Assembly: GCF_900142465.1 (NCBI RefSeq)
Contig: NZ_FRAX01000001.1
Location: 186,001 to 250,000 of the forward strand
Source: Fibrobacter sp. UWH6
GTDB lineage: Bacteria; Fibrobacterota; Fibrobacteria; Fibrobacterales; Fibrobacteraceae
DNA: 64,000 bases
Direction: 5' to 3'
Program-made: the position numbers and the translations under genes
Part shown: one piece after another, positions 2,203 through 30,587 of the stretch
Layout of the letters: every line of letters begins with the position of its first letter
How positions within the stretch are numbered: position 1 is the stretch's first letter
The notes under the pieces: generated by a model
Told to the model about the DNA's origin: nothing
Database searches by the model: none
What the model saw: only the letters and a program-made list of their open reading frames with translations

Positions 2203-2922
2203 ATGCCGTTTACTGATGATATAGAAAATCTGTTTGTTTTAAGCGATTATAAAAGAAATACGCCGGATGAAGACCTTATTGCCGATGTAAAGAAAGTTGC
2301 CATACAACTAGAAAAAAATACAGTAACGATAGCAGAATATGAGCTGTATGGAACGTTCCATCCAAGTACGCTACAAAGAAGATTTGGTTCCTGGTTTAAA
2401 GTTATGGAAGTGTGTAATTTAGATGCTAGTCGGAGTTGTTTGAACATTTCAGAAGAAAAATTATTTTCGAATTTAGAGAAGGTTTGGACTAGTTTAGGAC
2501 GACAACCGAAATATTGTGAAATGAGAAAACCTCTTTCAGAATATTCTGTCGGCACATATGAAAAAAGGTTTGGCAGTTTTCGAAGTGCTTTGAAGCAATT
2601 TGTGGAATATGTGTCTAGCGGAATTGAAAATAAATCTAAAGATAACGAATCTAACTGCAAAGTTAAGAAACTTTCAAAAGAAAATGAAGAAGTTGTTCAT
2701 AAAACGAAAAGAAATATTTCTGATAGATTACGTTTTCAGATATTGATGAGAGATGGTTTTACTTGTAAAACTTGTGGTCGAAGTCCTGTAACAGAATTGG
2801 GGGTAAAATTACATGTAGACCATATAATTCCGTGGTCGAAGGGGGGAGAAACCATTGCCGATAATTTGGAGACGAAATGCGAACAATGCAATCTTGGCAA
2901 AGGAAATGCTTTTGATTGCTGA
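2203..2922 (+). CDS. HNH endonuclease with two homing-associated repeats
   Basis: A 239-residue protein. Residues ~20-70 and ~85-137 are two copies of a ~50-residue module ending in RRFGSW / KRFGSF. It resembles the 'homing endonuclease associated repeat' (HNH_repeat) that precedes the nuclease in many mobile HNH proteins and is thought to bind DNA. Residues ~174-237 form a complete HNH domain: RDGFTCKTCGRSP, HVDHIIPWSKGG, NLETKCEQCNLGKGN, with both CxxC zinc pairs, the catalytic HVDH and the Asn. The gene is clearly richer in A and T than valS, as expected of acquired DNA. It is the only protein gene of the insert between the two valS 3' copies and ends at a strong terminator. It lacks a RuvC domain, so it is not IscB/Cas9-like. 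Confidence 0.9.
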   Translation: MPFTDDIENLFVLSDYKRNTPDEDLIADVKKVAIQLEKNTVTIAEYELYGTFHPSTLQRRFGSWFKVMEVCNLDASRSCLNISEEKLFSNLEKVWTSLGRQPKYCEMRKPLSEYSVGTYEKRFGSFRSALKQFVEYVSSGIENKSKDNESNCKVKKLSKENEEVVHKTKRNISDRLRFQILMRDGFTCKTCGRSPVTELGVKLHVDHIIPWSKGGETIADNLETKCEQCNLGKGNAFDC

Positions 2923-2946
2923 GAATTCAACTGTTTTTTTGTGAAT

Positions 2947-2980
2947 AAAAGAAGAGTCCTGTTTATAGGACTCTTCTTTT
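2947..2980. terminator. Bidirectional terminator after the HNH gene
   Basis: A perfect 14-bp stem (AAAAGAAGAGTCCT / AGGACTCTTCTTTT) with a six-base loop, flanked by A and T runs. Confidence 0.92.
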
Positions 2981-3088
2981 ATCAAATGGATTATACCTTA
3001 AGTAGCTTTCTTGACCCTTAAGGTTTTTGTCTAGAAAATTATCGCAAGTCCTGCAGAGCAGTTTGTACATTCGCTACGCTCATGTACC

Positions 3089-3149
3089 AAGTACTAGCCT
3101 CGGTCATGGACAAATGAATTTGTCCGCGACACTCGGCTTACGTACTTGT
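3089..3149. repeat. REP-like palindrome downstream of intact valS
   Basis: The core is the same as at 1901-1974 (CCTCGGTCATGGACAAAT, two variable loop bases, ATTTGTCCGCGACACTCGG), but the outer arms are AAGTAC/GTACTT. It lies directly next to the valS stop codon, so the two hairpins bracket the HNH segment. A separate short inverted repeat, GTACAT/ATGTAC, lies just beside it (3065-3086). Confidence 0.82.
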
Positions 3150-3154
3150 CATTC

Positions 3155-5902
3155 TTACTTCAACTCAGCTAGAGCCTTCTCGTTTTTGGCAATGATATCT
3201 TGCTGGGTTGCGAGCTTCACGCGTTCGGCGTTGACCACGGCTTCCGGGGCACCGCTAACAAACTTCTCATTGGAAAGTTTGCGTTCGATAGATGCGGCAA
3301 AGCTCTTGGCCTTTTCGATTTCCTTTTCGAGGCGTGCGATTTCTGCAGCCGGGTCAAGGATGCCTTCCAGCGGGATGAAGAGTTCGCCACCGGGCACAAC
3401 GGCGCTGGCGCTGAACTTGGGCTTTTCAGCCTTAACGCCAACGGTAATGCTTTCAATGCCGCCCAGTTCGGTGATGATGGCGAGGCATGCATTCACGGAA
3501 GCTTCGGTTGCTGCGTCGTCCACAGAAACAACAGCCTTCAGCTTGGTAGCGGGAGAAACGCTGTAGCGGCCTCGGACACCACGAACGGCTTCCACAACGG
3601 CGAAGGCCTGGTCGAAGGCGGCTTCAATGTCCTTGTTGATGAGAGATTCATCAGCGGTGGGCCAGGGGCGGCTGATCACCATTTCGGAGCCCTGGAACAG
3701 GATGCTGTTCAGTTCTTCAGTGATGAAGGGCATTACCGGGTGGAGAAGGTCAAGGACGTTCTTCAGCACGTAGCTGAGAATGGCCATAGCATTCTTCTTT
3801 TCGGCGGTGAGGGTTTCGCTGTTGATCACAGCCTTCTTGATTTCCAGGTACTGGCTGCAAACGTCATCCCACACGAAGCGGTAGAGGAAGCCGGCAAGTT
3901 CTGCGAAGTGGTATTCTTCCAGCATGCGGGTGGCATCCTTGATGGTGGTCTGCAGGCGAGAAAGGATCCACTTGTCTTCCAGTGCGAACAAATTCTTGTC
4001 CATGGGAAGTTCGGCGGCAAGGGCTCCAGCCTGTTCCAGCTGCGGGTAGAGGAAGCGGCAAGCGTTCCAAATCTTGTTAGAGAAGTTACGACCGATTTCG
4101 AACTTTTCGGAAGTGTTGATTTCGGTACCGTCTTCCTGCTTTTCCTTCTTCACCGGCAGACGAACGTCCTGGTTGTCGGTGCAGAGGCTGGCCATCACGA
4201 AGCGGAGCGCGTCAGTGCCGTACTTCTTTTCGATGTCCATGGGGTCCACGCCGTTACCCTTGGACTTACTCATGGTCATGCCATTGCCGTCCAGGATCTT
4301 CGGGTGGATGTAAACGGTGTGGAACGGGATCGTACCCATGTTTTCCTGGCTGAACAGCACCATGCGAGCCACCCAGAGGGTGATGATGTCGCGGCTGGTC
4401 ACCAGCACGGAAGTGGGGTAGTACTTCTTAAGAGTGTCGGTGTTTTCCGGCCAACCCATGGTAGAGTGGGGCCAGAGACCACTGGAGAACCAGGTGTCCA
4501 GAACGTCGTCTTCCTGCTTGAGAACGTGGCCCGGAACTGCGTCTTCTGCCAGGTTTTCTTCCTGAGAGCAGACCAGGTAGCCACCATTTTCAGCCTTGTA
4601 GAAGAAGATGTCTTCGCGGTTGCCAAATACGGCCTTCAGTTCTTCTTCGGTAGCGTCGGTGTGCCAGATAGGAATGCGGTGGCCCCACCAGAGCTGACGG
4701 CTGATGCACCAGTCGCGCTTTTCGCCAAGCCAATCCAAGTACTTGTTGGCGTAGCGTTCCGGAATAATCTTGATTTCGCCTGACTTCACAGCGTTCATTG
4801 CGTTTTCTGCAAGAACGTCCATCTTCACGAACCACTGGTCGCTGAGGTACGGTTCAATAACAGTCTTGGAACGGTCAGAGTGGCCCACGTCCATTTCGTG
4901 GTCTTCCACCTTGATGAGGAGGCCGAGTTCTTCGAGACCTGCAACCACAGCTTCACGAGCTGCCTGGCCCTTAAGGCCCTGGAACTTGCCAGCGTTTTCG
5001 TTCAAGGTTCCGTCGTCGTTCATGATGTTGATCATGGGGAGCTTATGACGGAGACCGGTAGCATAGTCGTTGGGGTCGTGAGCCGGGGTCACCTTCACGG
5101 AACCGGTACCAAAGTCCTTGTCCACGAGAATTGCGTCTGCGATCACCGGAATTTCACGGTCAACGAAAGGAACCTTCAGAGTCTTGCCGATGAACTGTGC
5201 ATAGCGTTCGTCGCTGGGGTGCACGGCAAGAGCGGTATCGCCCATGATGGTTTCCGGACGGGTGGTGGAAACGGGAATGAAACCCGAACCATCGGCCAGA
5301 GGATACTTGAAGGTCCAGAAGTGACCCTTCACATGTTCGTAATAGATTTCGTCGTCGGCAACGGCAGTCTGGAGCTTGGTGTCCCAGTTCACCAGACGCT
5401 TACCGCGGTAGATCAAACCCTTCTTGAACAGGTTGAAGAAGGCGTGGCGAACAGCCTTGGCGCAGATGGGGTCCAAGGTGAAGCGCTGACGGCTCCAGTC
5501 GCAGCTCACGCCAAGGCTCTTCAGCTGCTTGGTGATGCGAGCTTCATATTCTTCCTTCCACTTCCAGATGCGTTCCACCAAGGCGTCGCGGCCGATGTCG
5601 TGACGGGTCTTGTGTTCGTCCTGGAACAGGCGTTTTTCCACAACAGCCTGGGTTGCGATACCGGCGTGGTCCGTACCCGGAATCCACAGGGTGTCGCGAC
5701 CGGTCTTACGGCGGTAGCGTACCAAAATATCCTGAAGGGTGTCGTTCAAGGCGTGGCCCAGGTGCAGGGCGCCGGTTACGTTAGGAGGCGGAATGACGAC
5801 AGAGAACGGTTCGCCCTTACCGCTAGGTGCAAAGCTATTTTTTTCAGCCCAGGTCTCATGCCAGCGGGCTTCAACTTCTGAAGAATTATAACGTGTTTCC
5901 AT
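3155..5902 (-). CDS. valS: Valyl-tRNA synthetase
   Basis: Full-length (915 residues) class I aminoacyl-tRNA synthetase that charges tRNA-Val in the cytoplasm. The HIGH-type motif is GALHLGHALND near residue 45. The editing (CP1) domain follows (TTRPETIMGDTA...), then WCISRQLWWGHRIP and DVLDTWFSSGLWP. The KMSKS loop reads MTMSKSKGNG, so its first Lys is Thr. The anticodon-binding domain and a C-terminal coiled coil (AEIARLEKEIEKAKSF...) end the protein. The start ATG follows no obvious Shine-Dalgarno. The last ~724 bp are the copy of the gene end that adjoins the HNH insert; the other copy is the remnant at 1212-2007. No second complete valS is visible, so this gene is presumably essential. 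Confidence 0.97.
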   Translation of the reverse strand: METRYNSSEVEARWHETWAEKNSFAPSGKGEPFSVVIPPPNVTGALHLGHALNDTLQDILVRYRRKTGRDTLWIPGTDHAGIATQAVVEKRLFQDEHKTRHDIGRDALVERIWKWKEEYEARITKQLKSLGVSCDWSRQRFTLDPICAKAVRHAFFNLFKKGLIYRGKRLVNWDTKLQTAVADDEIYYEHVKGHFWTFKYPLADGSGFIPVSTTRPETIMGDTALAVHPSDERYAQFIGKTLKVPFVDREIPVIADAILVDKDFGTGSVKVTPAHDPNDYATGLRHKLPMINIMNDDGTLNENAGKFQGLKGQAAREAVVAGLEELGLLIKVEDHEMDVGHSDRSKTVIEPYLSDQWFVKMDVLAENAMNAVKSGEIKIIPERYANKYLDWLGEKRDWCISRQLWWGHRIPIWHTDATEEELKAVFGNREDIFFYKAENGGYLVCSQEENLAEDAVPGHVLKQEDDVLDTWFSSGLWPHSTMGWPENTDTLKKYYPTSVLVTSRDIITLWVARMVLFSQENMGTIPFHTVYIHPKILDGNGMTMSKSKGNGVDPMDIEKKYGTDALRFVMASLCTDNQDVRLPVKKEKQEDGTEINTSEKFEIGRNFSNKIWNACRFLYPQLEQAGALAAELPMDKNLFALEDKWILSRLQTTIKDATRMLEEYHFAELAGFLYRFVWDDVCSQYLEIKKAVINSETLTAEKKNAMAILSYVLKNVLDLLHPVMPFITEELNSILFQGSEMVISRPWPTADESLINKDIEAAFDQAFAVVEAVRGVRGRYSVSPATKLKAVVSVDDAATEASVNACLAIITELGGIESITVGVKAEKPKFSASAVVPGGELFIPLEGILDPAAEIARLEKEIEKAKSFAASIERKLSNEKFVSGAPEAVVNAERVKLATQQDIIAKNEKALAELK

Positions 5903-5963
5903 GATTTATTACTTCCACAAATAATTTCTTAATGCGGGCAAATTTAGAAAAAAACAGTGAACT

Positions 5964-6452
5964 TCACGAACGAGATGTTTTTGAACAGGACGAACTCTTG
6001 TCTTTTTTTGCCTGATAAGTACTTTGGGCTTCGCAGGCGCAGAGGGCTTTTTGACTTGTTAGAATGGCCATGGCGTCTGTGGAATCCCGCAGGATGCGAA
6101 GCAGGTTGTCCATGGAGCGGCTCTGTGTTACGGTTCCTTTTTCATACTTGGCAAAGGCCTTCGGTCCGCCACCTACGATTTCTGCAAATTCTTCCTGGGA
6201 GTAACCGAACTTCTTGCGAATTTCTACGATTTCCTGGGGCTGCAATAAGCCCTCCGCTTCCCTGTAGAGAGCATCTAGCTTTTTGTTGATGGGACCGACG
6301 CGTTCCTCGTCAATGAATTCCTCTCCACATCCGGTACAATGGAAAATTGGAAGGTTGTTTACTGTGATGGATTTACCCTTGTAGGTGTAGGTTTCTTTTA
6401 CTTTTTTTCGGTTCACTTTTGCGCTGCAAATGGGACATTCTTTGATAATCAT
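5964..6452 (-). CDS. mqsA: MqsA-like antitoxin / transcriptional regulator
   Basis: A 162-residue protein with the two-part MqsA layout. The N-terminal zinc finger has two CxxC pairs (CPIC near residue 6, CTGC near 39). A helix-turn-helix follows (residues ~75-120: RKKFGYSQEEFAEIVGGGPKAFAKYEKG). MqsA proteins bind the MqsR RNase with the zinc domain and repress their own operon with the HTH domain. The ATG follows an AAGGAGCT ribosome-binding site and directly abuts the stop codon of the mqsR remnant. The protein is about 30 residues longer than E. coli MqsA, with a Ser/Lys-rich tail. Since the toxin is truncated, this may now act only as a regulator. Confidence 0.85.
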   Translation of the reverse strand: MIIKECPICSAKVNRKKVKETYTYKGKSITVNNLPIFHCTGCGEEFIDEERVGPINKKLDALYREAEGLLQPQEIVEIRKKFGYSQEEFAEIVGGGPKAFAKYEKGTVTQSRSMDNLLRILRDSTDAMAILTSQKALCACEAQSTYQAKKDKSSSCSKTSRS

Positions 6453-6641
6453 TTATAGCTCCTTGAACGAAATGACAACTCCGTTTCCATTTTTTGTTAT
6501 TTGAATTTTGATGTACAACTTTACGCAAGAACCATCTGCTTTTGTGTCGACTGAATGATATACATCTTGCCAAAGAGTTGTGTCAGCGTCGGTTGTCATA
6601 GTGTGCTTTGCCGAGGTGTTCCATTCAGAATGCCTCCTCAA
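6453..6641 (-). pseudogene. mqsR: MqsR toxin remnant, C-terminal half only
   Basis: The last ~50 codons match the C-terminal half of MqsR, the GCU-specific mRNA interferase: MTTDADTTLWQDVYH, a lysine-rich strand, and VVISFKEL at the end. The frame is closed by a stop at 6657-6659, and no other frame upstream encodes the usual ~50 N-terminal residues. The 62-codon ORF begins with TTG. MqsR is normally about 100 residues, so half of the RelE-like fold is missing and activity is unlikely. It still sits immediately upstream of mqsA, as in known mqsRA operons. Confidence 0.8.
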
Positions 6642-6680
6642 AAGCAGAAGAATCTGTTACAATGAAAATATAGATATAAA

Positions 6681-6697
6681 AGTACCATAATGGTACT
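6681..6697. promoter_or_regulatory. Candidate operator of the mqs unit
   Basis: AGTACCATAATGGTACT is a perfect 17-bp palindrome 40 bp upstream of the remnant mqsR ORF, next to A/T-rich -10-like sequence. Its position fits an autoregulatory operator, and E. coli MqsA also binds a short palindrome. Binding by this MqsA is an inference. Confidence 0.55.
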
Positions 6698-6725
6698 ATC
6701 TGCGAGCGGTATTTTGGTCATTTAG

Positions 6726-6786
6726 CCTCCTGTCGCTACATGCTGAAAAGCGACGGTTTTGTGCTACGGTTTTATTTATCAAAAAA
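6726..6786. repeat. Direct repeat, copy 1 (3' side of the toxin-antitoxin pair)
   Basis: CCTCCTGTCGCTACATGCTG and the following bases are identical for 31 bp to 7516-7546, and similarity continues to about 60 bp. The repeat contains a hairpin, GTCGCT / AGCGAC. Confidence 0.8.
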
Positions 6787-6812
6787 TGGTTTAAGTTCGG
6801 CGAAACATTTGC

Positions 6813-7157
6813 CTAAGCTTTGTAAGCGGCTTTCTTTTCGGCCACGGCAAGTTTGCGGGTAACCTTTCTCTTTGTAGGAACTTTAGGAACCGCGATCATT
6901 TGAACATTTAGTGCGTTCAATACGCGTAAAATGGTGTCAAAACGGGGGTGAGCATCTTCATTCAGCGCCTTGTAAAGACTTTCTCTGCCGAGGCCTGTTG
7001 CTTTTGCAATTTGTGCGATGCCGCGAGCTTTGGCTACGTATCCAATGGTCCTCAACAAAACGGTGCTGTCGTTTGACTGCAATGCGTCGCTGATGACTCC
7101 CGCGATAACCTCCTCGTTATCCAAAAGCTCTGATAAATCCAGCTTACTTGTTTTCAT
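6813..7157 (-). CDS. HTH antitoxin of a RelE/HigB-like pair
   Basis: 114 residues from the ATG at 7157, chosen because GGAGG lies about ten bases upstream; longer in-frame starts run into the toxin gene. An Xre/Cro-type HTH is visible at residues ~45-85 (ARGIAQIAKATGLGRESLYKALN), followed by PRFDTILRVLNALNVQM, typical of the 'addiction module antidote' family paired with HI1419-like toxins. The Lys-rich tail is basic. The gene overlaps the end of the toxin gene by 14 bases, indicating translational coupling. The toxin-first order matches higBA-type operons. It is expected to neutralise the toxin and repress the operon. Confidence 0.88.
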   Translation of the reverse strand: MKTSKLDLSELLDNEEVIAGVISDALQSNDSTVLLRTIGYVAKARGIAQIAKATGLGRESLYKALNEDAHPRFDTILRVLNALNVQMIAVPKVPTKRKVTRKLAVAEKKAAYKA

Positions 7158-7449
7158 TTTGAATCGTCCTCCACATTTCCTTTGCCTTTTCAATGTCTCG
7201 CCGTTGTGTTGATTTGTCTCCACCACATAGGAGAATGATTACAACCTGTCCCCGTATGGCGTAGTAGAGCCTATATCCAGGTCCAACATCGAATCGCATT
7301 TCGGATATCCCGTCGCCAATGTTTTTGACATCACCAAGATTTCCTAGTTCAACTCTCAATAATCGAGAGAATATTCTCTGCTTTGCCTGATTGTCCTTAA
7401 GGTTCGCGTACCATTTAGAGAAAGTTTCAGTTTTCTCTATTGAAAACAT
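7144..7449 (-). CDS. RelE/ParE-superfamily toxin (HigB/HI1419-like)
   Basis: 101 residues from the ATG at 7449, preceded by GGGAGG seven bases upstream. The sequence follows the 'phage-derived Gp49-like / HI1419' toxin pattern: ETFSKWYANLKDNQAKQRI, then RVELGNLGDVKNIGDGISEMR, GPGYRLYYA and VVILLCGGDKSTQRRDIEKAKEM. Members are usually ribosome-dependent mRNA interferases. Size and all family motifs are intact, so the pair is probably functional. It is encoded upstream of, and overlapping, its antitoxin, and the cassette is bracketed by the direct repeats at 6726 and 7516. Confidence 0.9.
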   Translation of the reverse strand: MFSIEKTETFSKWYANLKDNQAKQRIFSRLLRVELGNLGDVKNIGDGISEMRFDVGPGYRLYYAIRGQVVIILLCGGDKSTQRRDIEKAKEMWRTIQNENK

Positions 7450-7463
7450 CTTACCCTCCCAAA

Positions 7464-7481
7464 TGTATCTAATCGGATACA
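7464..7481. promoter_or_regulatory. Candidate operator before the toxin gene
   Basis: The inverted repeat TGTATC-TAATCG-GATACA lies 15 bp upstream of the toxin start, where an autoregulating toxin-antitoxin complex would bind. Inferred from position and symmetry. Confidence 0.5.
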
Positions 7482-7515
7482 AAGTGTCAAGTGCATTACA
7501 TGTGTACTCATCGTT

Positions 7516-7576
7516 CCTCCTGTCGCTACATGCTGAAAAGCGACGGCTTTGTGCATCAGTTTTGCTTATCTAAAAA
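7516..7576. repeat. Direct repeat, copy 2 (5' side of the toxin-antitoxin pair)
   Basis: Second copy of the repeat at 6726-6786, 790 bp away. The 31-bp core with its GTCGCT/AGCGAC hairpin is identical; the rest is diverged. Confidence 0.8.
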
Positions 7577-7729
7577 TCAGAAATCGGTTTGAAATCTGCG
7601 CGAATTTCGCCGCAATCAAATGTACACACAAATTCTTGTCACAAAGTGTCAAAATGAAGCGGAGAACCGCATTTCTCCGTGAAAGATTACCAAAATTTTC
7701 AAGTTTTTTGCCGTTTTTGGCAAAAATAC

Positions 7730-7783
7730 TTGACATTGTTTTTTTTTGTTTACATTTAGGTGTAAGTAAATAAAAAGATGAGG
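7730..7783 (+). promoter_or_regulatory. Promoter and ribosome-binding site of the SIR2 operon
   Basis: TTGACA at 7730-7735 is a consensus -35 box. A TACATT -10-like box follows after about 15 bp, and GATGAGG precedes the ATG at 7789. The preceding 200 bp hold no convincing gene; a 74-codon ORF at 7549 looks random. Confidence 0.55.
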
Positions 7784-7788
7784 TTTGT

Positions 7789-8187
7789 ATGGCTTATCAA
7801 ATTGAATGTGTTATTCAAGAAGTTGGTTTGGCTGTGAATGGTTGTGTATCGTCCCTTAAGGTAAAGGGAACGGAAGGCTATCTGTTAAAACAGGGTAGCG
7901 ACGAGTATAATGTGTTTTGCCCTGAAAAAATGCTGGAAAAAAATGAATCTTGTGATGATGGAAAAATTGAGAGTGGCAAACAGACTGTTTTATTGAATGT
8001 GAAGAACGATTTGAATTTTAAGACGACCATTTGTTACGGAATTGCGCAATCGCTCATTCAAGCAAAAATATCAAACACAAAAGTACGCCTGAAATTTGAA
8101 GAACCTCCCTCAAAGTCTAAATCTACTGCAGGTACTTCTGGTTGTGAAAAAATAGAAGCCAAGATAATCTCCATCACCCTCATCTAG
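7789..8187 (+). CDS. Unrecognised 132-residue protein, first gene of the SIR2 operon
   Basis: I do not recognise this protein. It has no signal peptide or membrane segment, four to five cysteines and a Lys/Ser-rich linker near residue 108. It looks like a small all-beta or alpha/beta soluble protein. It has its own promoter and GATGAGG site and ends four bases before the SIR2 gene, so the two are very probably co-transcribed. In SIR2-type defence systems a small partner gene often encodes a sensor or inhibitor; that role here is only a guess from position. The gene is more A/T-rich than the housekeeping genes nearby. Confidence 0.75.
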   Translation: MAYQIECVIQEVGLAVNGCVSSLKVKGTEGYLLKQGSDEYNVFCPEKMLEKNESCDDGKIESGKQTVLLNVKNDLNFKTTICYGIAQSLIQAKISNTKVRLKFEEPPSKSKSTAGTSGCEKIEAKIISITLI

Positions 8188-8191
8188 CCTT

Positions 8192-9907
8192 ATGAGCCAG
8201 CCTTCTACATGGTCGGAGACCCTCGTTTTTATTGGTGCCGGAGCTTCGGCCTTGCTTGGCATGCCCCAAACCAGTGAACAAACAAAATTTTTTCGAGAAT
8301 TATCAAAATTCGGTGGTCGTAAGAGCCTGGCGAATTTCACGAATGATTTTGCGCAAAACGACCTGAATCGCCTTGAAGATTTTCTTATTCTGCTTGGGGA
8401 CGACAAAACAGACGAAGATTGCTGGCTAGAAATTACAAATGGTGAGCTAGCCGCAGCGCGCAGGGCCTATGGTTCCGCAGGTGTAACTCCACCAGACGAA
8501 ATCCTGAAAAAAAGGATTCTGGAACTTCGCCATTCATACGACTGGCTGGCCCTTAAGCAGATCATTTCCATTTGCCCTTGTGACGAAGGAAACGACAACC
8601 TGATTCGTGATGTCTATACCCTGCTCGATAAAAAGATGAACGCCAAGCAGGGCATCAAGGTTCGTGCGGCGATCGGCGATAAGGATGAAATTGTCATAGA
8701 CTACAGCAGGCTTAAGGGGGCGTACGCCTGCGTTATCTGTTTTACGGTAATCCTTTTCGCAAAATCTTGGAAAAATCTTGCAGAAGGCGAAAAGGCTGAG
8801 ATGTTTTCTAGCTACAAAAAGTTTGCAGAAACATTCGCTCGCCTGATGCAAAAGGAAAGTTTTGCTTTTGCCGAAAAATACCCGGACCTGACAAGCCGCG
8901 AATTTTACCAGTTCAGTACCTCTTTTGTCTCCTTCAATTTCGAAACCGTTTTCATGTGGCTCCTGTTCAATGCGAACCGCGAAGTGAACCACTTTGATAA
9001 GTATTTGAAGACGGCTCAAAAGGTGGAGCAGTGGCTGGATTTTGGATTCCAGACCAAGAGCCGAAAAATTTCAAGTAAACCAGAAGATCGAAAGTCCGAA
9101 AAGTTCTCCTATTCCTACGACGAAGTGGTTGCCTTTAGGCAGAATGAATGCAAGGCTTCCGGGTCACCTGTTGGGCGTATAGGCAAGTTCTTTTTTGCCC
9201 ACGGCAGTTCCAACTGGCGTGAATGCCCCGCCTGCGGGCGTATGATGTATTACCTTGGCGACGAGTGGGGCTATGGCTCAAAACATTTGAACCCACCTTT
9301 GCCTGTGCCTCTGTTTGAAAACGATAATTTTAACCGCACAGAAAACGAAAAACGCTGGCGTAACGAATCATTGCAATCGGATGCCCTAGAGTGTGTTTCC
9401 TGTGGGGCAAAGACTTTTGCCAGTAATTCGCCCATGATTATGCAGACCATGATCAAGGGAACGCCGACATCGTTCCTTGAAGAAGTCCAGCGCGAAGTTC
9501 GCGTGGGCCTTGAAAAATGCCGGCATGTGGTTCTGCTGGGGTACTCCTTGCCTGTAGATGATGTTGTGTGGATACAGACTTTTACAGAGGCCATTCGTTG
9601 CCGAATAAACTCCGAAGAAAAGGCGTATTGTAGCGTGGTTGTGGGGTATAAAGGTGAAAAACGATGGATGTATGGCGAAGAACTGAAATGTTATGCAGAT
9701 GCCCATCGTTACGAAAAGGAAGCCGATGCGTATGGGGCTAAGGCTATAGAAAGTGTAATATCCATTTTCGGTGCCGAGAATGTTCGTGCGTACTGCGGTG
9801 GAATCCCTCAGGTCTGGGGTGACGCAACCGAAAATGAATTGAAGGAAATTCTCTATCCGCAGAGCTGGAATGCGGATATGTGGAAAGGAACGAGATTGGA
9901 AAAATAA
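8192..9907 (+). CDS. SIR2-domain protein, probable NADase of a defence system
   Basis: 571 residues. SIR2 landmarks appear in order: VFIGAGASALLGMP (13-26, NAD-binding glycines), SFNFE (247-251, in the place of the TxNxD motif), FAHGS (335-339, catalytic His), CPAC (345-348) and CVSC (401-404) as a zinc ribbon, and LLGYSLPVDD (448-457). About 220 residues of helical insertion separate the first two motifs, which is more like the SIR2 proteins of anti-phage systems than like protein deacetylases. Such proteins often hydrolyse NAD on infection and stop growth. The start ATG lies four bases after the previous stop, with no strong ribosome-binding site, suggesting coupling. A zinc ribbon as complete as this is more typical of true sirtuins, so deacetylase activity is not excluded. 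Confidence 0.85.
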   Translation: MSQPSTWSETLVFIGAGASALLGMPQTSEQTKFFRELSKFGGRKSLANFTNDFAQNDLNRLEDFLILLGDDKTDEDCWLEITNGELAAARRAYGSAGVTPPDEILKKRILELRHSYDWLALKQIISICPCDEGNDNLIRDVYTLLDKKMNAKQGIKVRAAIGDKDEIVIDYSRLKGAYACVICFTVILFAKSWKNLAEGEKAEMFSSYKKFAETFARLMQKESFAFAEKYPDLTSREFYQFSTSFVSFNFETVFMWLLFNANREVNHFDKYLKTAQKVEQWLDFGFQTKSRKISSKPEDRKSEKFSYSYDEVVAFRQNECKASGSPVGRIGKFFFAHGSSNWRECPACGRMMYYLGDEWGYGSKHLNPPLPVPLFENDNFNRTENEKRWRNESLQSDALECVSCGAKTFASNSPMIMQTMIKGTPTSFLEEVQREVRVGLEKCRHVVLLGYSLPVDDVVWIQTFTEAIRCRINSEEKAYCSVVVGYKGEKRWMYGEELKCYADAHRYEKEADAYGAKAIESVISIFGAENVRAYCGGIPQVWGDATENELKEILYPQSWNADMWKGTRLEK

Positions 9908-9919
9908 AAGGTGAATGTC

Positions 9920-10633
9920 ATGACAATAACCAAAGAAAAACATTCCTTCAATTTTGTTGGAGGAGATAAACTTAGTAGTATGGGTGCGACATGGTTTGTC
10001 CTGTATCATTACTATAAAACATCGGATTCTTCCTATGATAAGTGGAAGGAAAAAAGTGAAAACAGTGCAAAGATTCGATTGAGCACTTATGAAAAAGAAG
10101 TTGGAAAAAGACTCTCTGATTACGGAAAGGAGAGCGAGTGTGCAATGGAATTTGGAGATTGCAGCATTGTAGAATATTGGCTTGAAAAAATACAAGAAAT
10201 GGATGACTGTAACTTGGACAAGTCTAATTTCAATGTAACCCCAGAGGAAGTGAAAAGGCTTTGTTCTTTAATGCTTTCGCAAATGCGGTTTGGCATTGTA
10301 TGTGTTGTGAAATCTATTTCTATGGGGATGCAGTTTGAATTTGAAATTCTGGGCTGTGAAAATTATTTGCATAGAATCACTGAGAAAAATAATGAACGTT
10401 GTTTGAATTACTTTGTGAAAGGTGACAAAACATCAGCTCTTATGCTTGATTCAAAAACGAAATTCGTTCTAGATCAAGAATCTCCACTAGTCAAAATGTT
10501 CGTTGCTGGTTTTGAAAGTAACCGAAAGATTGAAATGACCTTTAGAGGTGCCGCTTTCAAAAATGTATGTAGCAAATTGTTCGGTGAATTTGTGAACGTA
10601 GAAGAACTCATTTGCGAAGTTAAACTGTATTAA
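9920..10633 (+). CDS. Unrecognised 237-residue protein, third gene of the SIR2 operon
   Basis: I do not recognise this family. ATG 9920 is preferred over GTG 9911 because AAGGTGA lies just upstream of it. The protein is soluble, Lys/Glu-rich, with about eight cysteines, and no signal or membrane segment. The N-terminal part is probably helical (residues 25-110); residues 120-230 alternate in a beta-strand pattern (FGIVCVVKSISMGMQFEFEI). It begins 12 bases after the SIR2 stop in the same direction, so it belongs to the same transcript. Codon use is A/T-rich like the first gene of the operon. A role as sensor or partner of the SIR2 effector is possible but unproven. Confidence 0.75.
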   Translation: MTITKEKHSFNFVGGDKLSSMGATWFVLYHYYKTSDSSYDKWKEKSENSAKIRLSTYEKEVGKRLSDYGKESECAMEFGDCSIVEYWLEKIQEMDDCNLDKSNFNVTPEEVKRLCSLMLSQMRFGIVCVVKSISMGMQFEFEILGCENYLHRITEKNNERCLNYFVKGDKTSALMLDSKTKFVLDQESPLVKMFVAGFESNRKIEMTFRGAAFKNVCSKLFGEFVNVEELICEVKLY

Positions 10634-10671: not shown

Positions 10672-11259
10672 ATGAAAAAAGAAATGATTATGGGAAAAAT
10701 TCTTGTGACCGTAGTCTTGTTAGCTACATTTTCTATGGCGGGAACCATGAAGGATTCCCGCGATGGCAAAACATACAAGACCGTGAAAATCGGCGACCAA
10801 GTATGGATGGCAGAAAACTTGAACTATAAGACCAGCGGCAGCATGTGTTATGACAATAAACTCTCCAATTGCAAAAAATATGGTCGCCTGTACGCTTGGG
10901 AGGACGCAAAGGCTGCTTGTCCAACCGGCTGGCACTTGCCCAGTACGGAGGAATTTGAGACTCTTTTGAGTAATGTTGGATCTTCAAGTAAGGAACGACG
11001 TGAAAATTTGCGTGCTGCTAGTTGGGAAAACGGAGCTGATGAGTTCGGTTTTTCCGCTCTCCCTGCTGGCGACTACAGCAGCAGCCTCAAGCGGTTCATC
11101 AACCTTGGCGACTACGCCAGCTTTTGGTCTTCTACGGAGCACAGATTCAACAGCGCCTACGCCAACTTCCTGAACATCAATGACCGCCACGCGGGCGTCT
11201 ACGACCGCAGCGAGAAGCTCGGCGGCTACTCGGTGCGTTGTCTCCAGGACTCTAACTAG
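10672..11259 (+). CDS. Exported FISUMP-domain protein, probable DGR target
   Basis: 195 residues. A signal peptide occupies residues 1-23 (a hydrophobic run ending in FSMAG), followed by one complete FISUMP domain: RDGKTYKTVKIGDQVWMAEN, NCKKYGRLYAWEDA, CPTGWHLPSTEEFE, LPAGDYSS..., FWSSTEH, and YSVRCLQD at the end. FISUMP belongs to the C-type-lectin-like fold also used by DGR variable proteins. The last third (residues ~127-190, bases 11052-11237) differs from the template-like repeat at 12277-12362 only at template adenines, and most of its codons end in C. The surface of the lectin-like fold is therefore probably diversified. Start: CGGAG about eight bases before the ATG. The ligand is unknown. 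Confidence 0.88.
   Translation: MKKEMIMGKILVTVVLLATFSMAGTMKDSRDGKTYKTVKIGDQVWMAENLNYKTSGSMCYDNKLSNCKKYGRLYAWEDAKAACPTGWHLPSTEEFETLLSNVGSSSKERRENLRAASWENGADEFGFSALPAGDYSSSLKRFINLGDYASFWSSTEHRFNSAYANFLNINDRHAGVYDRSEKLGGYSVRCLQDSN
11052..11237 (+). other. DGR variable repeat (VR) in the FISUMP gene
   Basis: Bases 11052-11137 align without gaps to 12277-12362. All 11 differences fall on adenines of the latter (five-way mix A to G, C or T), while all 59 non-adenine positions match. Beyond 11137 the downstream half has no matching local template, but 24 of its 34 codons end in C, as expected if it derived from AAC-rich template codons. Encoded residues LPAGDYSSSLKRFINL and following form the variable surface. 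Confidence 0.85.
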
Positions 11260-11283
11260 GCTTCCACCGAAGGTGGGAAGCCT
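11258..11283 (+). promoter_or_regulatory. Hairpin immediately after the VR
   Basis: AGGCTTCC-ACC / GGT-GGGAAGCCT with a GAA loop overlaps the stop codon. Studied DGRs need a DNA hairpin or cruciform just downstream of the VR for efficient target recognition; a role here is inferred. A degenerate relative follows the template copy (12475-12511). Confidence 0.55.
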
Positions 11284-11314
11284 AGCCAAGGCTTAGCGAA
11301 GCAAAGCCTTGAAA

Positions 11315-11368
11315 CTCCCCGAAGAACAACGCAGCGCAGCTGCGAAAGTTCTTCGGGGAGAAATTTTT
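11315..11368 (+). terminator. Terminator after the FISUMP gene
   Basis: A perfect 13-bp stem CTCCCCGAAGAAC / GTTCTTCGGGGAG, with a 20-base loop containing further small complements, is followed by AAATTTTTTG. Another inverted repeat, AAGGCTT/AAGCCTT-like, precedes it at 11288-11310. Confidence 0.8.
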
Positions 11369-11384
11369 TGTTTGGTTATAAATA

Positions 11385-12152
11385 TTGCTTATAGACGAAA
11401 TTTACACCGTGGAAAGCGACAACGAATCAAGCATTCACTTGATTCGTGATCGTAAGTTTTTCCAGGCGTACGAAAGGTCCGCATTCCGTTTTGTAAAATT
11501 TCTCCGTGAGTACAAGGTTCACCATAAGTTCGTGAAGAAAATCGGTGCCGATGTCGTGTATCTCGGCTTCCCTGATTCTGTTCTTGATGGTTTGAGGGCC
11601 GAGGCTCAGGATGCCGGCTACGAGTGGAAAATTATTTCCGATGATCGGCATATAGAAATCAGTGGCTTGCCAGAATTAGAATCGTACGATGCCTGGAAAA
11701 CCGGTATTGTTCAGTCTGTAGGCAATGCCTCCACGAATGTTTCAAAGCTTTCTTCAACTGTGGAAACAGTCGTTCCCTTGAAAAAGCTCTTTGTCATCTA
11801 CCGTGAGTTCTATGACCTCACATTGTACCTTTGTCGTTTAACTAGCAAGTTTCATCGAAATTTTAAGTTCGGTCTGGGAGATAAATTGCGGGAGGAATGT
11901 GTATCTGTTCTGGCCGACTTGCAATGTGTCGTCCAGTCAAAAATTGCATTTGAATACGTTCGCCTTGAACGATTTTTGGTTACGTTGCAAATCCGGCTGC
12001 GTTTGCTTCTGGATTTAAAGCAGGTCACCGAGAAGCAGTGGATTTTTGTAAATCAGGCTATAGTCAAACTTCAAAACCTTTTAGGGCGGAATCCGGTAAA
12101 TCAAGGTTTGCCGGAGTGTCCCGTTTCAGAGTCCAGCAGTCCGCTTGCCTAA
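11385..12152 (+). CDS. Avd-like DGR accessory protein with a MutS-I-like N-terminal domain
   Basis: 255 residues. The C-terminal part (~125-235) is a four-helix bundle matching the bAvd / 23S-intervening-sequence family: VPLKKLFVIYREFYDLTLYL, SKFHRNFKFGLGDKLREEC, IAFEYVRLERFLVTLQIRLR, KQVTEKQWIFVNQAIVKLQN, LLGRN. Avd forms a basic pentamer that works with the reverse transcriptase in DGR mutagenic retrohoming. The N-terminal ~110 residues (IYTVESDNESSIHLIRD..., FVKKIGADVVYLGFPDSVL) recall the mismatch-recognition domain I of MutS; this part of the call is less sure. The start is uncertain: TTG 11385 has no clear ribosome-binding site, and GTG 11409 is an alternative. It lies between VR and template, the usual DGR position for avd. 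Confidence 0.82.
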   Translation: MLIDEIYTVESDNESSIHLIRDRKFFQAYERSAFRFVKFLREYKVHHKFVKKIGADVVYLGFPDSVLDGLRAEAQDAGYEWKIISDDRHIEISGLPELESYDAWKTGIVQSVGNASTNVSKLSSTVETVVPLKKLFVIYREFYDLTLYLCRLTSKFHRNFKFGLGDKLREECVSVLADLQCVVQSKIAFEYVRLERFLVTLQIRLRLLLDLKQVTEKQWIFVNQAIVKLQNLLGRNPVNQGLPECPVSESSSPLA

Positions 12153-12196: not shown

Positions 12197-12478
12197 TTGC
12201 AAGGTCAACTGGATTTGTTCGGCGATTGCAACCTTCTGCAACCTCTTAATAGCGACTGCGTTCAAACGGCTTGTGGTTCCGCTCTCCCTGCTGGCAACTA
12301 CAACAGCAACAACAAGAAGTTCAACAACCTTGGCAACAACGCCAACTTTTGGTCTTCTACGGCTGATGGCGGCGAAGCCTATCGTTTGAATCTGTTTGTT
12401 GATGTCGCGGAGCCAAATATTGAGGGATGTAGCGTGGATAATGGATTCTCTGTTCGTTGTCTCCGGGACTCTAACTAG
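12197..12478 (+). pseudogene. FISUMP 3'-end fragment carrying the DGR template
   Basis: Only the last third of a FISUMP domain is present: SALPAGNYNSNNKKFNN, LGNNANFWSSTADGG and NGFSVRCLRDSN. No signal peptide, GDQVWMAEN or WHLPS motif precedes it; the ~120 bases upstream of 12277 look non-coding. Homology to the gene at 10672 resumes at the stop codon and continues ~40 bases beyond it. The first half is loaded with AAC codons and serves as the template repeat. The second half (DGGEAYRLNLFVDVAEPN...) is not AAC-rich and does not match the VR, so the fragment may be partly decayed or recombined. Confidence 0.75.
12277..12362 (+). other. DGR template repeat (TR)
   Basis: 86 bp starting TTCCGCTCTCCCTGCTGGC and then AAC/AAG-rich codons; 27 adenines in total. 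Eleven of these are replaced in the VR at 11052-11137 and no other base is changed. It lies 125 bp downstream of the avd-like gene, as in classical VR-avd-TR-RT cassettes, but no reverse transcriptase gene follows. Confidence 0.85.
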
Positions 12479-12538
12479 GCACCCACTGAAGATGGGCCGC
12501 CAAGCCTAGGCCTAGCGAAGTAAAACCTTAAAATAAAC

Positions 12539-27556: not shown

Positions 27557-28697
27557 ACCGTACATCCTCTTTTGTGCGGGTGAAGATTCTGGAGACTGCA
27601 TTGGTGAAAGCCTAGTCTCTGCCTTTTTCAAAAAAGGGGCGCATCAGTTTGATGCCTTGGGCTCAGGTGGCCCCCGCATGCAAGGGGCGGGTCTGCGCGC
27701 TCTTGTGGAATATGAGGATTTGCCGGTATCCGGTTTTGGCGATGTGCTTCCTAAGTATCTGAAACTTCGTCGAGACTATAAGACTCTGGAAACGGTGTTG
27801 GCTAATCCTGCCTGCAAGGGGCTGGTGGCCATTGACTATCCCGGGTTCAACATGAAGCTAGTCCAGCTGGCGGGGCGTCTCGGAAAACCAAGCCTTTATG
27901 TGGCGCCGCCCCAGGTGTGGGCCTGGAAGGCGAAACGTGCCAAGCAGTTGGCGGTTGTTCCTCAGACACGACTGGCTGTGTTTTTTGAATTTGAGAAAGC
28001 CCCTTATGAGATGGAAGGATGCTCCGTTTCTCGTTTGCGACACCCTTTTGCAGAATCCACCCATGAAGAAGTGACGAACTCTTCCGAACAAAAAAATCTT
28101 CACGAAAAAATCCTGCTGATGCCGGGTAGCCGTAAGGGGCAGACTCTGCGCAATATTCCTGTTTTCCTGAAGATTGCATCGAAGTTCCAGGATCAAAATT
28201 TTGCTTTCGTCGCGGCCCGAAAAAGTTTGGTGGCCCTTATTCAAGACTGCCTAAACCGTTATTTCCACGGAAAGGTTCCCTCCTGGATTCAGGTGGTCGA
28301 GGCTCCCTCTCTGCCCCAGGAACGGTGTGCTTTCTATAGAAATTCCCAGGGGGCGATTTCTGCTCCGGGAACGGCTACCTTGGAACTTGCCTTGTCCGGG
28401 GTTCCCCTGGTCGTCTGTACCAAGCCGGATGCATTGACCTATGCCCTAGGGAAACGTCTTGTCAGGACGTCCTATTTTTCTCTCCCTAATATTGTTTTAT
28501 CGCAAGCGAGTACTGCTGAATTTATAAAGTACCGTTGGAATGATTCGTCTTACGAACAGGCCGCCGAAGCCTTAAAGTCGGCCATGTCATTACGCGAAAA
28601 AAAATCCGCAAAACTGGAATCAGAATTGCGGAATAATTTGTCTGAAGGACTGTCGTCAGAACAGTTAATGTCTGAATTTCTTGCTCAGTTCTTCTAA
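27543..28697 (+). CDS. lpxB: Lipid-A-disaccharide synthase
   Basis: 384 residues from the ATG at 27543; the longer open frame upstream lies inside dnaE. LpxB (GT19) signatures are FCAGEDSGDCIGESLV, ALGSGGPRMQGAGL, GFGDVLPKY, IDYPGFNMKL, PPQVWAWKAKRAKQL and SAPGTATLELALSGVPLVV. It joins UDP-diacylglucosamine to lipid X to make the lipid A disaccharide, so the organism has lipopolysaccharide. The usual E. coli SGE triad reads GEDSGD here. It overlaps dnaE by 14 bases and converges on mutL with a 33-base overlap. Confidence 0.95.
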   Translation: MQEGKPYILFCAGEDSGDCIGESLVSAFFKKGAHQFDALGSGGPRMQGAGLRALVEYEDLPVSGFGDVLPKYLKLRRDYKTLETVLANPACKGLVAIDYPGFNMKLVQLAGRLGKPSLYVAPPQVWAWKAKRAKQLAVVPQTRLAVFFEFEKAPYEMEGCSVSRLRHPFAESTHEEVTNSSEQKNLHEKILLMPGSRKGQTLRNIPVFLKIASKFQDQNFAFVAARKSLVALIQDCLNRYFHGKVPSWIQVVEAPSLPQERCAFYRNSQGAISAPGTATLELALSGVPLVVCTKPDALTYALGKRLVRTSYFSLPNIVLSQASTAEFIKYRWNDSSYEQAAEALKSAMSLREKKSAKLESELRNNLSEGLSSEQLMSEFLAQFF

Positions 28698-30575
28698 TGT
28701 CAAACGCATCAGGGTCGGCGTTCCGTAGGGGGATTTCAACGGTTCGTCGGTGGTCATGAGCTGGCCCATCAATGTGGCCATTTCTTCTGGTTTCAACTTG
28801 TCTCCTGCCTGGTAGGCGTTGGTCTTTGCCCAGGCCTTGGCGATAATGTCTTGCACCTTTACCATGTCGCCTTCGCTGTTGCCGTCGATGCTGTCCAGAA
28901 AGTCTCGTACCGCCTTGATGGCTCGTGACAGCGGCAATGCGCTGGGGATAGAACGGATCTGGTAAGTGTCTCCGCCAAAGTGTTCGATGTAAAAGCCCAA
29001 CTGCTGGAACTGGCTTTCGACAGAACTGAGAACCTGGGCCTCGATCTTGCTGAGTTCCAGATGTTCCGGGAACAGAAGTTCCTGGCTGTCCAGGGCGGAA
29101 CCGTTTCGCAAAGTCTCCAGAGCCTGTTCGTACAGGATGCGGGAATGGGCGGCATGCTGGTCGATGATGAGCAAACCGTTGACGTCTTCGCCGGCAATGT
29201 AGGTGTTGGCGATCTGGAAAAAGGCAGGGGGATTCCAGACGGGAGGAGCCTTGACCTCGGCCTTCTTCTCTGTTTCCAGGGAGATGACCTTTCCTGCTTC
29301 GGGGGTGCTGAACAAGTCCTGGTTCAAGTCGTCTTCGCGCTGTTGCTTTACCGGCTTAGGAGAAATCCAGGACTTGCTGAACGAAGGGGGCGTGTAAGAG
29401 GGCGTGTAAGGCTGCTTAGGGCCAGGATCCTTGAAACTTGTAGGGGGTGTGGGTTCGCTGACAGGTGCCGCAAACTGTAAGGGAGGGGCAAAGGAACTGG
29501 TCGGTGCCGCAGTCTCCGCAAACGAAGACGCTGCGGGGGCGGGCGAACTCATTTCATCGCTCAAGTCGATAAACGGGGAATTTGCTTCCATGTCCTGCTT
29601 GAACGTTTCGCGGATGGCGTGGAGGACGACCAGAAAGACTAGGTTCCCGTTGGCAAAGCGGACTTCTCGCTTGGCCGGGTGAACGTTTACGTCGAACTCC
29701 ATGTCGGGCATGTCCAGGAAGAGTACCGATACAGGTTTGCACTGGGCACCGTAAGGCTCGTAGGACTGGGTAACCGCCTTGCTGACCATCTTGCTTTCGA
29801 TGGGGCGGTTGCGGATGAACAAATACTGGTTGTTGCGCTTGCCGTTTGTTTCGGTCGTGGGGGAGACAAAGCCTGTGACGTGGATGCCTGCTTCGGTGTA
29901 GTCCACGGGGAGCAGCGCCTTTGCAATTTTAGAACCGATGGCTTCGGCGATTCTGCTTCGGAGCTCTCCGGGGACGCCTGTAAATACGGATTTGCCTCCA
30001 ACCTTATAATCGAAGCGGATCTCCGGGTGGGCGATCGCTGTCTTAAGGATGACGTCAAAAATTCGAGTGCTTTCTGAAGTTTCGCTACTCAGGAACGTTC
30101 GACGGACTGGAGTGTTGTAAAAAAGATCTTCTACCAGGAAGGTTGTTCCGCGACTTGCCTGAATATCCTGTTTTTCTACCAGTTCGCCTCCTTTAAGAAT
30201 GAGACGTCCGCTTTCGCCATCGTCTGTGGCGCTGGTGATTGTCAGCTTAGAAATGGCGGCGATTGAAGCCACGGCTTCGCCTCGGAAACCGTTTGTTCTT
30301 AGATGAAAAAGATCGTCGGCATTGTTTAGTTTAGATGTAGTATGCCTCAGGTAGCAGATGTCCAGGTCGGCGCTGCTCATGCCCTTCCCGTTGTCCGAAA
30401 CCTGGATTTTTTTCTTTCCGCCTTCTTCGATAGTGACTTGAATACGGGTGGCTCCCGCATCAATTGCGTTCTCGATGAGTTCCTTTACAGCGGATGCCGG
30501 ACGCTCAATAACTTCACCTGCAGCGATTTTATTGATGATTTCGTCTGGCAAAAAGTGGATTTCGGCGGTTTTCAT
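28665..30575 (-). CDS. mutL: DNA mismatch repair protein MutL
   Basis: 636 residues from ATG 30575. The N-terminal GHKL ATPase has IAAGEVIERPASAVKELIEN, DNGKGM, RTNGFRGEAVASIAAIS and RGTTFLVEDLFYNTPVR. A proline-rich linker follows (residues ~335-430), then the C-terminal dimerisation domain (IIDQHAAHSRILYE). The metal-binding DQHA(X)2E(X)4E endonuclease motif is not seen; instead DQHAAHSRILYE is the degenerate form. This suggests a non-endonuclease MutL, but that needs structural alignment. The 3' end overlaps the end of lpxB by 33 bases. Confidence 0.96.
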   Translation of the reverse strand: MKTAEIHFLPDEIINKIAAGEVIERPASAVKELIENAIDAGATRIQVTIEEGGKKKIQVSDNGKGMSSADLDICYLRHTTSKLNNADDLFHLRTNGFRGEAVASIAAISKLTITSATDDGESGRLILKGGELVEKQDIQASRGTTFLVEDLFYNTPVRRTFLSSETSESTRIFDVILKTAIAHPEIRFDYKVGGKSVFTGVPGELRSRIAEAIGSKIAKALLPVDYTEAGIHVTGFVSPTTETNGKRNNQYLFIRNRPIESKMVSKAVTQSYEPYGAQCKPVSVLFLDMPDMEFDVNVHPAKREVRFANGNLVFLVVLHAIRETFKQDMEANSPFIDLSDEMSSPAPAASSFAETAAPTSSFAPPLQFAAPVSEPTPPTSFKDPGPKQPYTPSYTPPSFSKSWISPKPVKQQREDDLNQDLFSTPEAGKVISLETEKKAEVKAPPVWNPPAFFQIANTYIAGEDVNGLLIIDQHAAHSRILYEQALETLRNGSALDSQELLFPEHLELSKIEAQVLSSVESQFQQLGFYIEHFGGDTYQIRSIPSALPLSRAIKAVRDFLDSIDGNSEGDMVKVQDIIAKAWAKTNAYQAGDKLKPEEMATLMGQLMTTDEPLKSPYGTPTLMRLTLEELSKKFRH

Positions 30576-30587
30576 GCCCAAAATATA
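30575..30587 (-). promoter_or_regulatory. -10-like box six bases before mutL
   Basis: On the minus strand TATATT, six bases (TTGGGC), then ATG. No Shine-Dalgarno is present; a leaderless transcript is suggested. Confidence 0.45.

Follow-up and report, generated by a model that had tools for sequence, protein, structure and literature searches.

The locus

The window, by which we mean the whole stretch of 64,000 nucleotides of Fibrobacter sp. UWH6 DNA analysed here, corresponds to G000:C1:186001-250000 and carries the following series of features on its plus strand. The first is the gene of a FISUMP-domain target protein (10672-11259; TIGR02145, E 2.3e-55 in Pfam/NCBIfam searches), the 3' part of which is the VR. 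Right after this gene comes a stem-loop (11256-11285; the DNA fold of 11256-11292 has -11.2 kcal/mol and z -4.1), whose placement is similar to that of the stem-loop following the IMH of BPP-1 in excerpts from PMC12875486. A strong hairpin and then a T run, terminator-like in their arrangement (11315-11361; z -5.95 for 11300-11372), lie between the target gene and an ORF of 255 amino acids taken from the ORF list (11385-12152), which encodes the MSL-Avd protein considered below. The ORF starts with TTG, which is plausible because an in-frame ATG is found at the same place when the sequence is aligned with its orthologue from genome G011. Downstream lie the adenine-rich 5' half of a TR (12276-12360) and, in place of the TR 3' half, the 3' end of a target (FISUMP) gene (12361-12533; Fib_succ_major match of ORF 12197-12478). 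No RT was found within the window, and an Rfam scan of the window gave no match.

A MutS domain I-like domain fused to Avd

When the whole protein is modelled by AlphaFold from an alignment of 34 rows that comprise the window and related loci (28 with the MSL domain and 24 with the Avd part, one of these truncated), the mean pLDDT is 86.8. The model consists of an alpha/beta domain (residues 1-114), a disordered linker (about 116-127) and four helices between residues 132 and 232. Structure comparison by VIA matches the helices with BPP-1 Avd (8ub8_C, Z 12.8, rmsd 2.1 over 102 residues; 4dwl_C, Z 12.5), so that the expectation that they form the Avd bundle is borne out; we place this four-helix bundle at residues 132-235 (11778-12089). 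By sequence, the NCBIfam model DivGenRetAVD (NF033474) finds residues 138-227 with E 1.1e-4 and 22.5 bits, under its curated cut-off of 80, and bAvd matches 14 of the 34 rows of the alignment of relatives (best 6.4e-14). The protein shares with BPP-1 Avd (PDB 4dwl, 8ub7-8ube; Z 12.5-12.8) both the bundle and a gene position directly upstream of the TR. However, the BPP-1 chains are listed with about 110 residues and have no extra N-terminal domain, while the window, for its part, lacks an RT.

The initial annotation had suggested that the extra N-terminal domain resembles MutS domain I, and this is confirmed. When residues 1-115 are modelled alone (pLDDT 89.1, pTM 0.81), domain I of MutS/MSH proteins occupies ranks 1-41 of the 50 rows listed by VIA; the best match is 7ou4_A (Z 8.3, rmsd 2.4 over 81 residues), and the first unrelated fold is GFRP (Z 4.8). 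Residues 1-87 of the whole-protein model also match MutS, and we define the MutS domain I-like (MSL) domain by them (11385-11645); the modelled fold extends to about residue 113. The N-terminal half of the window protein has no Pfam match of its own, and PF01624 (MutS_I) matches 7 of the 34 aligned rows (best E 2.2e-5). In a profile-profile comparison (hhalign), the MSL profile scores 30.2 against a profile of Fibrobacterota MutS domain I, to be compared with 18.6 for the best of 200 column shuffles and 10.0 for the reversed profile. The N-domain profile had no match among the sequences of the PDB. Since Foldseek gave no match at E <=0.001, either with the two-domain model or with the 115-residue model (best 0.016, weak), the identity of the domain rests on the VIA lists and the profiles.

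According to these models, the ORF almost certainly comprises two domains, a MutS domain I-like domain and an Avd bundle. With MutS/MSH domain I (PDB 7ou4, 1e3m, 1wbd) the window protein shares the fold of residues 1-87, the Phe of the Phe-X-Glu motif and a G-F-P motif; it differs by the absence of the Glu, of MutS domains II-V and of the ATPase, the Avd part being all that follows the N-domain. MutS-like (PF01624) accessory proteins of DGRs, termed MSL, have been described before in excerpts from PMC10053308, which cites an earlier survey. MSLs being already in print, the fusion is a variation on these known accessory proteins: it has the same MutS domain I homologue in a DGR cassette, but joined to Avd and without the MutS C-terminal motif of the stand-alone forms. 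The ORF is a natural fusion of an accessory domain of the MSL kind with an Avd bundle. Its nearest named relatives include Fibrobacter records. The literature searched yielded no paper on an MSL-Avd fusion, on the loss of the Glu or on the MutS tail described below; the fusion may be in the 2018 Nucleic Acids Research survey, and the main text of a Nat Commun 2021 article (PMC8144416) mentions neither Avd, MutS nor MSL.

The Phe-X-Glu motif

In excerpts from PMC3848065, Phe36 of MutS stacks on the mismatched base and Glu38 bonds to that base; replacing Glu38 of the E. coli protein by Gln completely disrupts the discrimination between canonical and mismatched duplexes. F25 and Q27 of the window protein align with the Phe and the Glu of this motif by hhalign. 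The structural ranges given by VIA agree, since model residues 1-87 lie on chain residues 12-112, which equates F25 with Phe36 and Q27 with Glu38. The window motif is therefore Phe-X-Gln instead of Phe-X-Glu.

The count covers 46 distinct sequences, all from loci that a protein or profile search had detected; the profile had itself been built from pattern-found rows. None of the 46 has the Glu. Among 29 DGR-linked sequences, a class that includes fused proteins by virtue of their own Avd part, the Phe is present in 29 and the Glu in 0 (Q17 K5 R5 H2). Among 17 sequences with no Avd or RT within the DNA examined, some of them at contig ends or fragmentary, the Phe is present in 11 and the Glu again in 0. 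The difference in Phe retention has p 0.0013. By comparison, 8 of 8 Fibrobacterota MutS domain I rows have the Glu. DGR-linked MSLs have thus kept the wedge Phe and lost the discriminator Glu. Since the Glu is found in 0/29 of them, they are unlikely to sense mismatches through the known chemistry. Elsewhere in the domain, residue 48 is a basic column (27/27 rows) and R31 is present in 26/27. We discarded an earlier motif count (F 51/51; Q28 K19 H3 R1), since the scan pattern behind it itself required F-x-[QKH]-A.

Five stand-alone MSL-like ORFs of 116-133 amino acids from the order of Alistipes (L145:7979-8377, L147:7688-8035, L148:7602-7952, L149:666-1064 and L151:8165-8530) lack the wedge Phe and have no RT or Avd in the DNA examined. 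L145 and L148 sit among fimbrial genes (Mfa2, FimA, Mfa_like_1).

Fused and split forms

The survey of DGR loci that the initial annotation had called for indicates that the fusion recurs in related bacteria. A scan of genome contigs with a sequence pattern demanding F-x-[QKH]-A yielded 32 loci: 17 intact fusions in one ORF, 1 truncated fusion, 11 loci with two ORFs and 3 with MSL only. The two-ORF loci are 10 from Bacteroidales, in which the MSL and Avd ORFs mostly overlap by a few bases, and 1 interrupted Fibrobacter fusion. An RT match was present within the DNA fetched for 28 of the 32. IMG/VR contributed another 8 loci (7 fusions and 1 fragment). By profile search, 25 of 167 genomes from the phylum were found to encode the MSL domain, as were 18 of 295 from the order to which Alistipes belongs. 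The fused form is spread through Fibrobacterota and is also present in a single clade of Bacteroidales; in other Bacteroidales, MSL and Avd are encoded by separate genes. One Fibrobacter MSL-Avd DGR with a FISUMP-domain target (L020:1861-5864) adjoins phage baseplate genes and is for that reason probably used by a phage or prophage.

MSL and RT go together. Of 60 relative genomes, 9 have both, 1 has MSL alone (G009), 2 have RT alone and 48 have neither (Fisher p 3.6e-8); the RTs of the two RT-only genomes, G019 and G052, are both distant.

Stand-alone MSLs end in a C-terminal motif, F-x-L-x3-TP-x-E-C-x2-F-x3-L-K, and MutS proteins from the same and related genomes have a like ending. Profiles of the two tails (17 MSL versus 11 MutS) align with an hhalign score of 39.3 and a probability of 96, against 16.1 for the best of 300 shuffles and 8.6 for the reversed profile. 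A first shuffle control had given three anomalous scores of about 130, with gap-rich columns; none arose in the 300 shuffles of trimmed alignments. When an HMM of the MutS tail was run against all ORFs of the loci, MSL ORFs were the top 9 and the top 4 in two sets. A further tail HMM, built partly from MSL tails, matched no fusion. Altogether the tail is present in 17/17 intact stand-alone MSLs versus 0/16 fusions examined. A regular expression finds it in 14 of the 17; in the other three (L133, L135, L136) it was recognised by eye and by this further tail HMM, which was itself built partly from those three. The 17 are intact ORFs of at least 166 amino acids, 14 of them with a separate Avd ORF; L044 and L141 have no Avd in the DNA examined and L139 has a partial Avd match. 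Left out of the count were the fragments L035, L041, L137, L138, L140, L142-L144, L146 and L150, and the short ORFs L145, L147, L148, L149 and L151, which are absent from the tail HMM matches.

The motif is short, and when the MSL tails were compared with PDB sequences, two chance rows came up and not MutS. The tail of the MutS encoded in the window's own genome itself had a sole and weak match in the PDB, a separate 53-residue MutS chain (3zlj_C, E 0.2). In E. coli MutS, it is this region that forms tetramers. Tetramers of full-size MutS are important for suppressing recombination, according to excerpts from PMC3848065. With a domain I at one end and a MutS-type tail at the other, the stand-alone MSL looks like a MutS from which the middle part, with the ATPase, is missing. 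The window protein gives no evidence on this point, because no fusion carries the tail.

In the RT tree (33 rows), the fused or split state needs two changes, and the starred branches force 2. The tree is unrooted and is compatible with two fusions as well as with one fusion followed or preceded by one split. Two fusions are favoured because the stand-alone MSLs retain the MutS-type tail.

A probably decayed cassette

The window copy of MSL-Avd very probably belongs to a DGR cassette that has decayed. The VR part at 11051-11135 pairs with the surviving TR half, and 11 of the 12 differences over these 85 columns fall at TR adenines (hypergeometric p 2e-6). The surviving half is almost identical to the TR of the C36 cassette of G011, and this cassette bears an RT. 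Things are different for the TR 3' half, which shows 49 differences from the VR, 8 of them at adenines. The sequence at 12443-12533 repeats 11224-11314 at 81%, including the stem-loop area and the sequence past the stop of the VR gene, and the junction region 12276-12533 as a whole resembles a product of TR x VR recombination. Most likely, the TR recombined with a VR that lay downstream and pointed the same way, and the TR 3' half was looped out together with the RT. The window thus suggests a plausible route of RT loss, possibly a general one in DGRs whose target lies beyond the RT.

The genome's only RVT_1 match is on contig C5, where a complete DGR with a paralogue of MSL-Avd is found (L017, G000:C5:208000-220000); it is this DGR that serves the genome now. 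Its genes, all on the minus strand of the locus, are in the order target (6632-9220), MSL-Avd (5540-6424), TR (about 5290-5520), RT (4229-5293), ATPase (2815-4017) and second target (1804-2796). This order fits RT loss by TR x VR recombination, because the second target lies beyond the RT. The C5 TR has a likely third, remote target on contig C2 (L176; 34/39 mismatches at TR adenines), which suggests that C5 acts at a distance; another row of this comparison, L174, is uninformative, its stretch containing the TR itself. A third MSL fragment in the same genome (L152:7630-7959, G000:C6) is broken, and neither Avd nor RT lies within about 8 kb of it.

G009 shares the genes upstream with the window (88%); its MSL-Avd orthologue is truncated, and no RT match is found in the genome. 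The G011 orthologue has an internal deletion. Against G009, Ka/Ks is 0.10 over the N-domain and 0.28 over the Avd part. Since this indicates selection on the protein, either the decay is recent or the protein is still of some use. The latter could mean that the window MSL-Avd helps the C5 RT in trans. The intact ORF, the purifying selection and the remote target of the C5 TR agree with such help, but the RT and half of the TR are gone from the window cassette and both orthologues are damaged, G009 being devoid of an RT match as well; we regard it as improbable.

Possible role of the MSL domain

The MSL domain touches on two questions about DGRs, namely how the mutated cDNA replaces the target and how the heavily mismatched intermediate survives host mismatch repair. 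The paired cDNA:target intermediate carries a mismatch at many adenines. A MutS-derived domain tied to Avd, with its Phe kept and its Glu gone, points to the step of the cDNA:target duplex, and the contrast between split and fused forms suggests a need for MSL to be tied to Avd. For BPP-1, excerpts from PMC12875486 describe Avd as essential and the RT-Avd complex as recruited by the template RNA; the cDNA is proposed there to pair with target DNA on the lagging strand.

We propose that Avd, as the partner of RT and template RNA, would bring MSL domains to the site where cDNA and target pair. There, MSL may wedge its conserved Phe into duplex and keep hold of the cDNA:VR heteroduplex with its many mismatches (or of the cDNA:RNA hybrid), with the mismatches not being judged. 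Having no ATPase, it would neither call MutL nor start repair. Where MSL is a separate protein, its MutS-type tail would serve to oligomerise or dock it, and in the fusions the covalent link to Avd would make the tail needless. This duplex-gripping role, suggested by motif, linkage and fold, is the reading that we favour, as a tentative possibility. We know of no MutS domain I that binds DNA alone, and the invariant Phe could serve a protein contact instead; both points count against gripping. The case is also made weaker by the weak Foldseek E value, by the mild charge of MSL (mean net charge +1.8 over 27 rows, and -5 in the window copy) and by the shortness of the tail motif.

Extended to its history, the same proposal would be that DGRs captured a MutS and kept its wedge domain, with the Glu changed to Gln, Lys, Arg or His, together with its C-terminal oligomerisation tail; this ATPase-less MutS would hold the mutated cDNA on its target and keep host repair away, and would have been fused to Avd at least twice, each time without the tail. 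As a whole, this scenario is rather speculative and on balance unlikely.

An adaptor role comes close behind gripping. MSL would then be an extension of Avd that binds the RT or the template RNA, its Phe no longer being a DNA wedge. The constant linkage with Avd and RT, the MutS-type tail of the stand-alone forms and the basic residues noted above (residue 48 in 27/27, R31 in 26/27) would suit such an adaptor. However, every DGR-linked copy has the Phe, while 6/17 of the copies without Avd or RT in the DNA examined have lost it, which speaks against the adaptor; we regard this role as rather unlikely.

A related proposal assigns to MSL the task of shielding, in that it would cover the cDNA:target heteroduplex against rejection or correction by host MutS/MutL. 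The host retains both MutS and MutL (window 28665-30581), and MSL is without every part needed for repair signalling. Moreover, in excerpts from PMC12875486, pairing of the cDNA with the lagging strand is proposed and mutS was deleted to preserve substitutions. Against this, MutS had no effect on an 18-nt repair reporter in E. coli in the same excerpts, although the authors state that the 18-nt insertion is no substrate of MutS. We regard shielding as unlikely.

The least probable reading, very unlikely in our estimate, is that of the initial annotation, in which MSL recognises the mismatches of A-mutagenesis and couples them to retrohoming: the MutS domain I fold and the stacking Phe invariant in DGR-linked copies speak for it, but the Glu is absent from 46/46 distinct sequences (29 linked, 17 not), Glu38Gln abolishes discrimination in MutS (excerpts from PMC3848065), no ATPase or connector domain is present to relay a signal, and at the window locus any coupling to retrohoming is doubtful because the cassette has no RT.

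Neighbouring genes

Several other features of the window were noted. A toxin-antitoxin pair of the HI1419/HI1420 type is encoded on the minus strand at 6813-7482. Two adjoining genes at 8192-10633 (571 and 240 amino acids; about 88% DNA identity in G009) have no NCBIfam match and no Pfam match above the cut-off; the first starts with a FIGAGAS motif, which we take to be reminiscent of SIR2-like proteins. Further upstream, the C-terminal part of ORF 3155-5902, presumably resembling valyl-tRNA synthetase, recurs nearly unchanged at 1212-1913.
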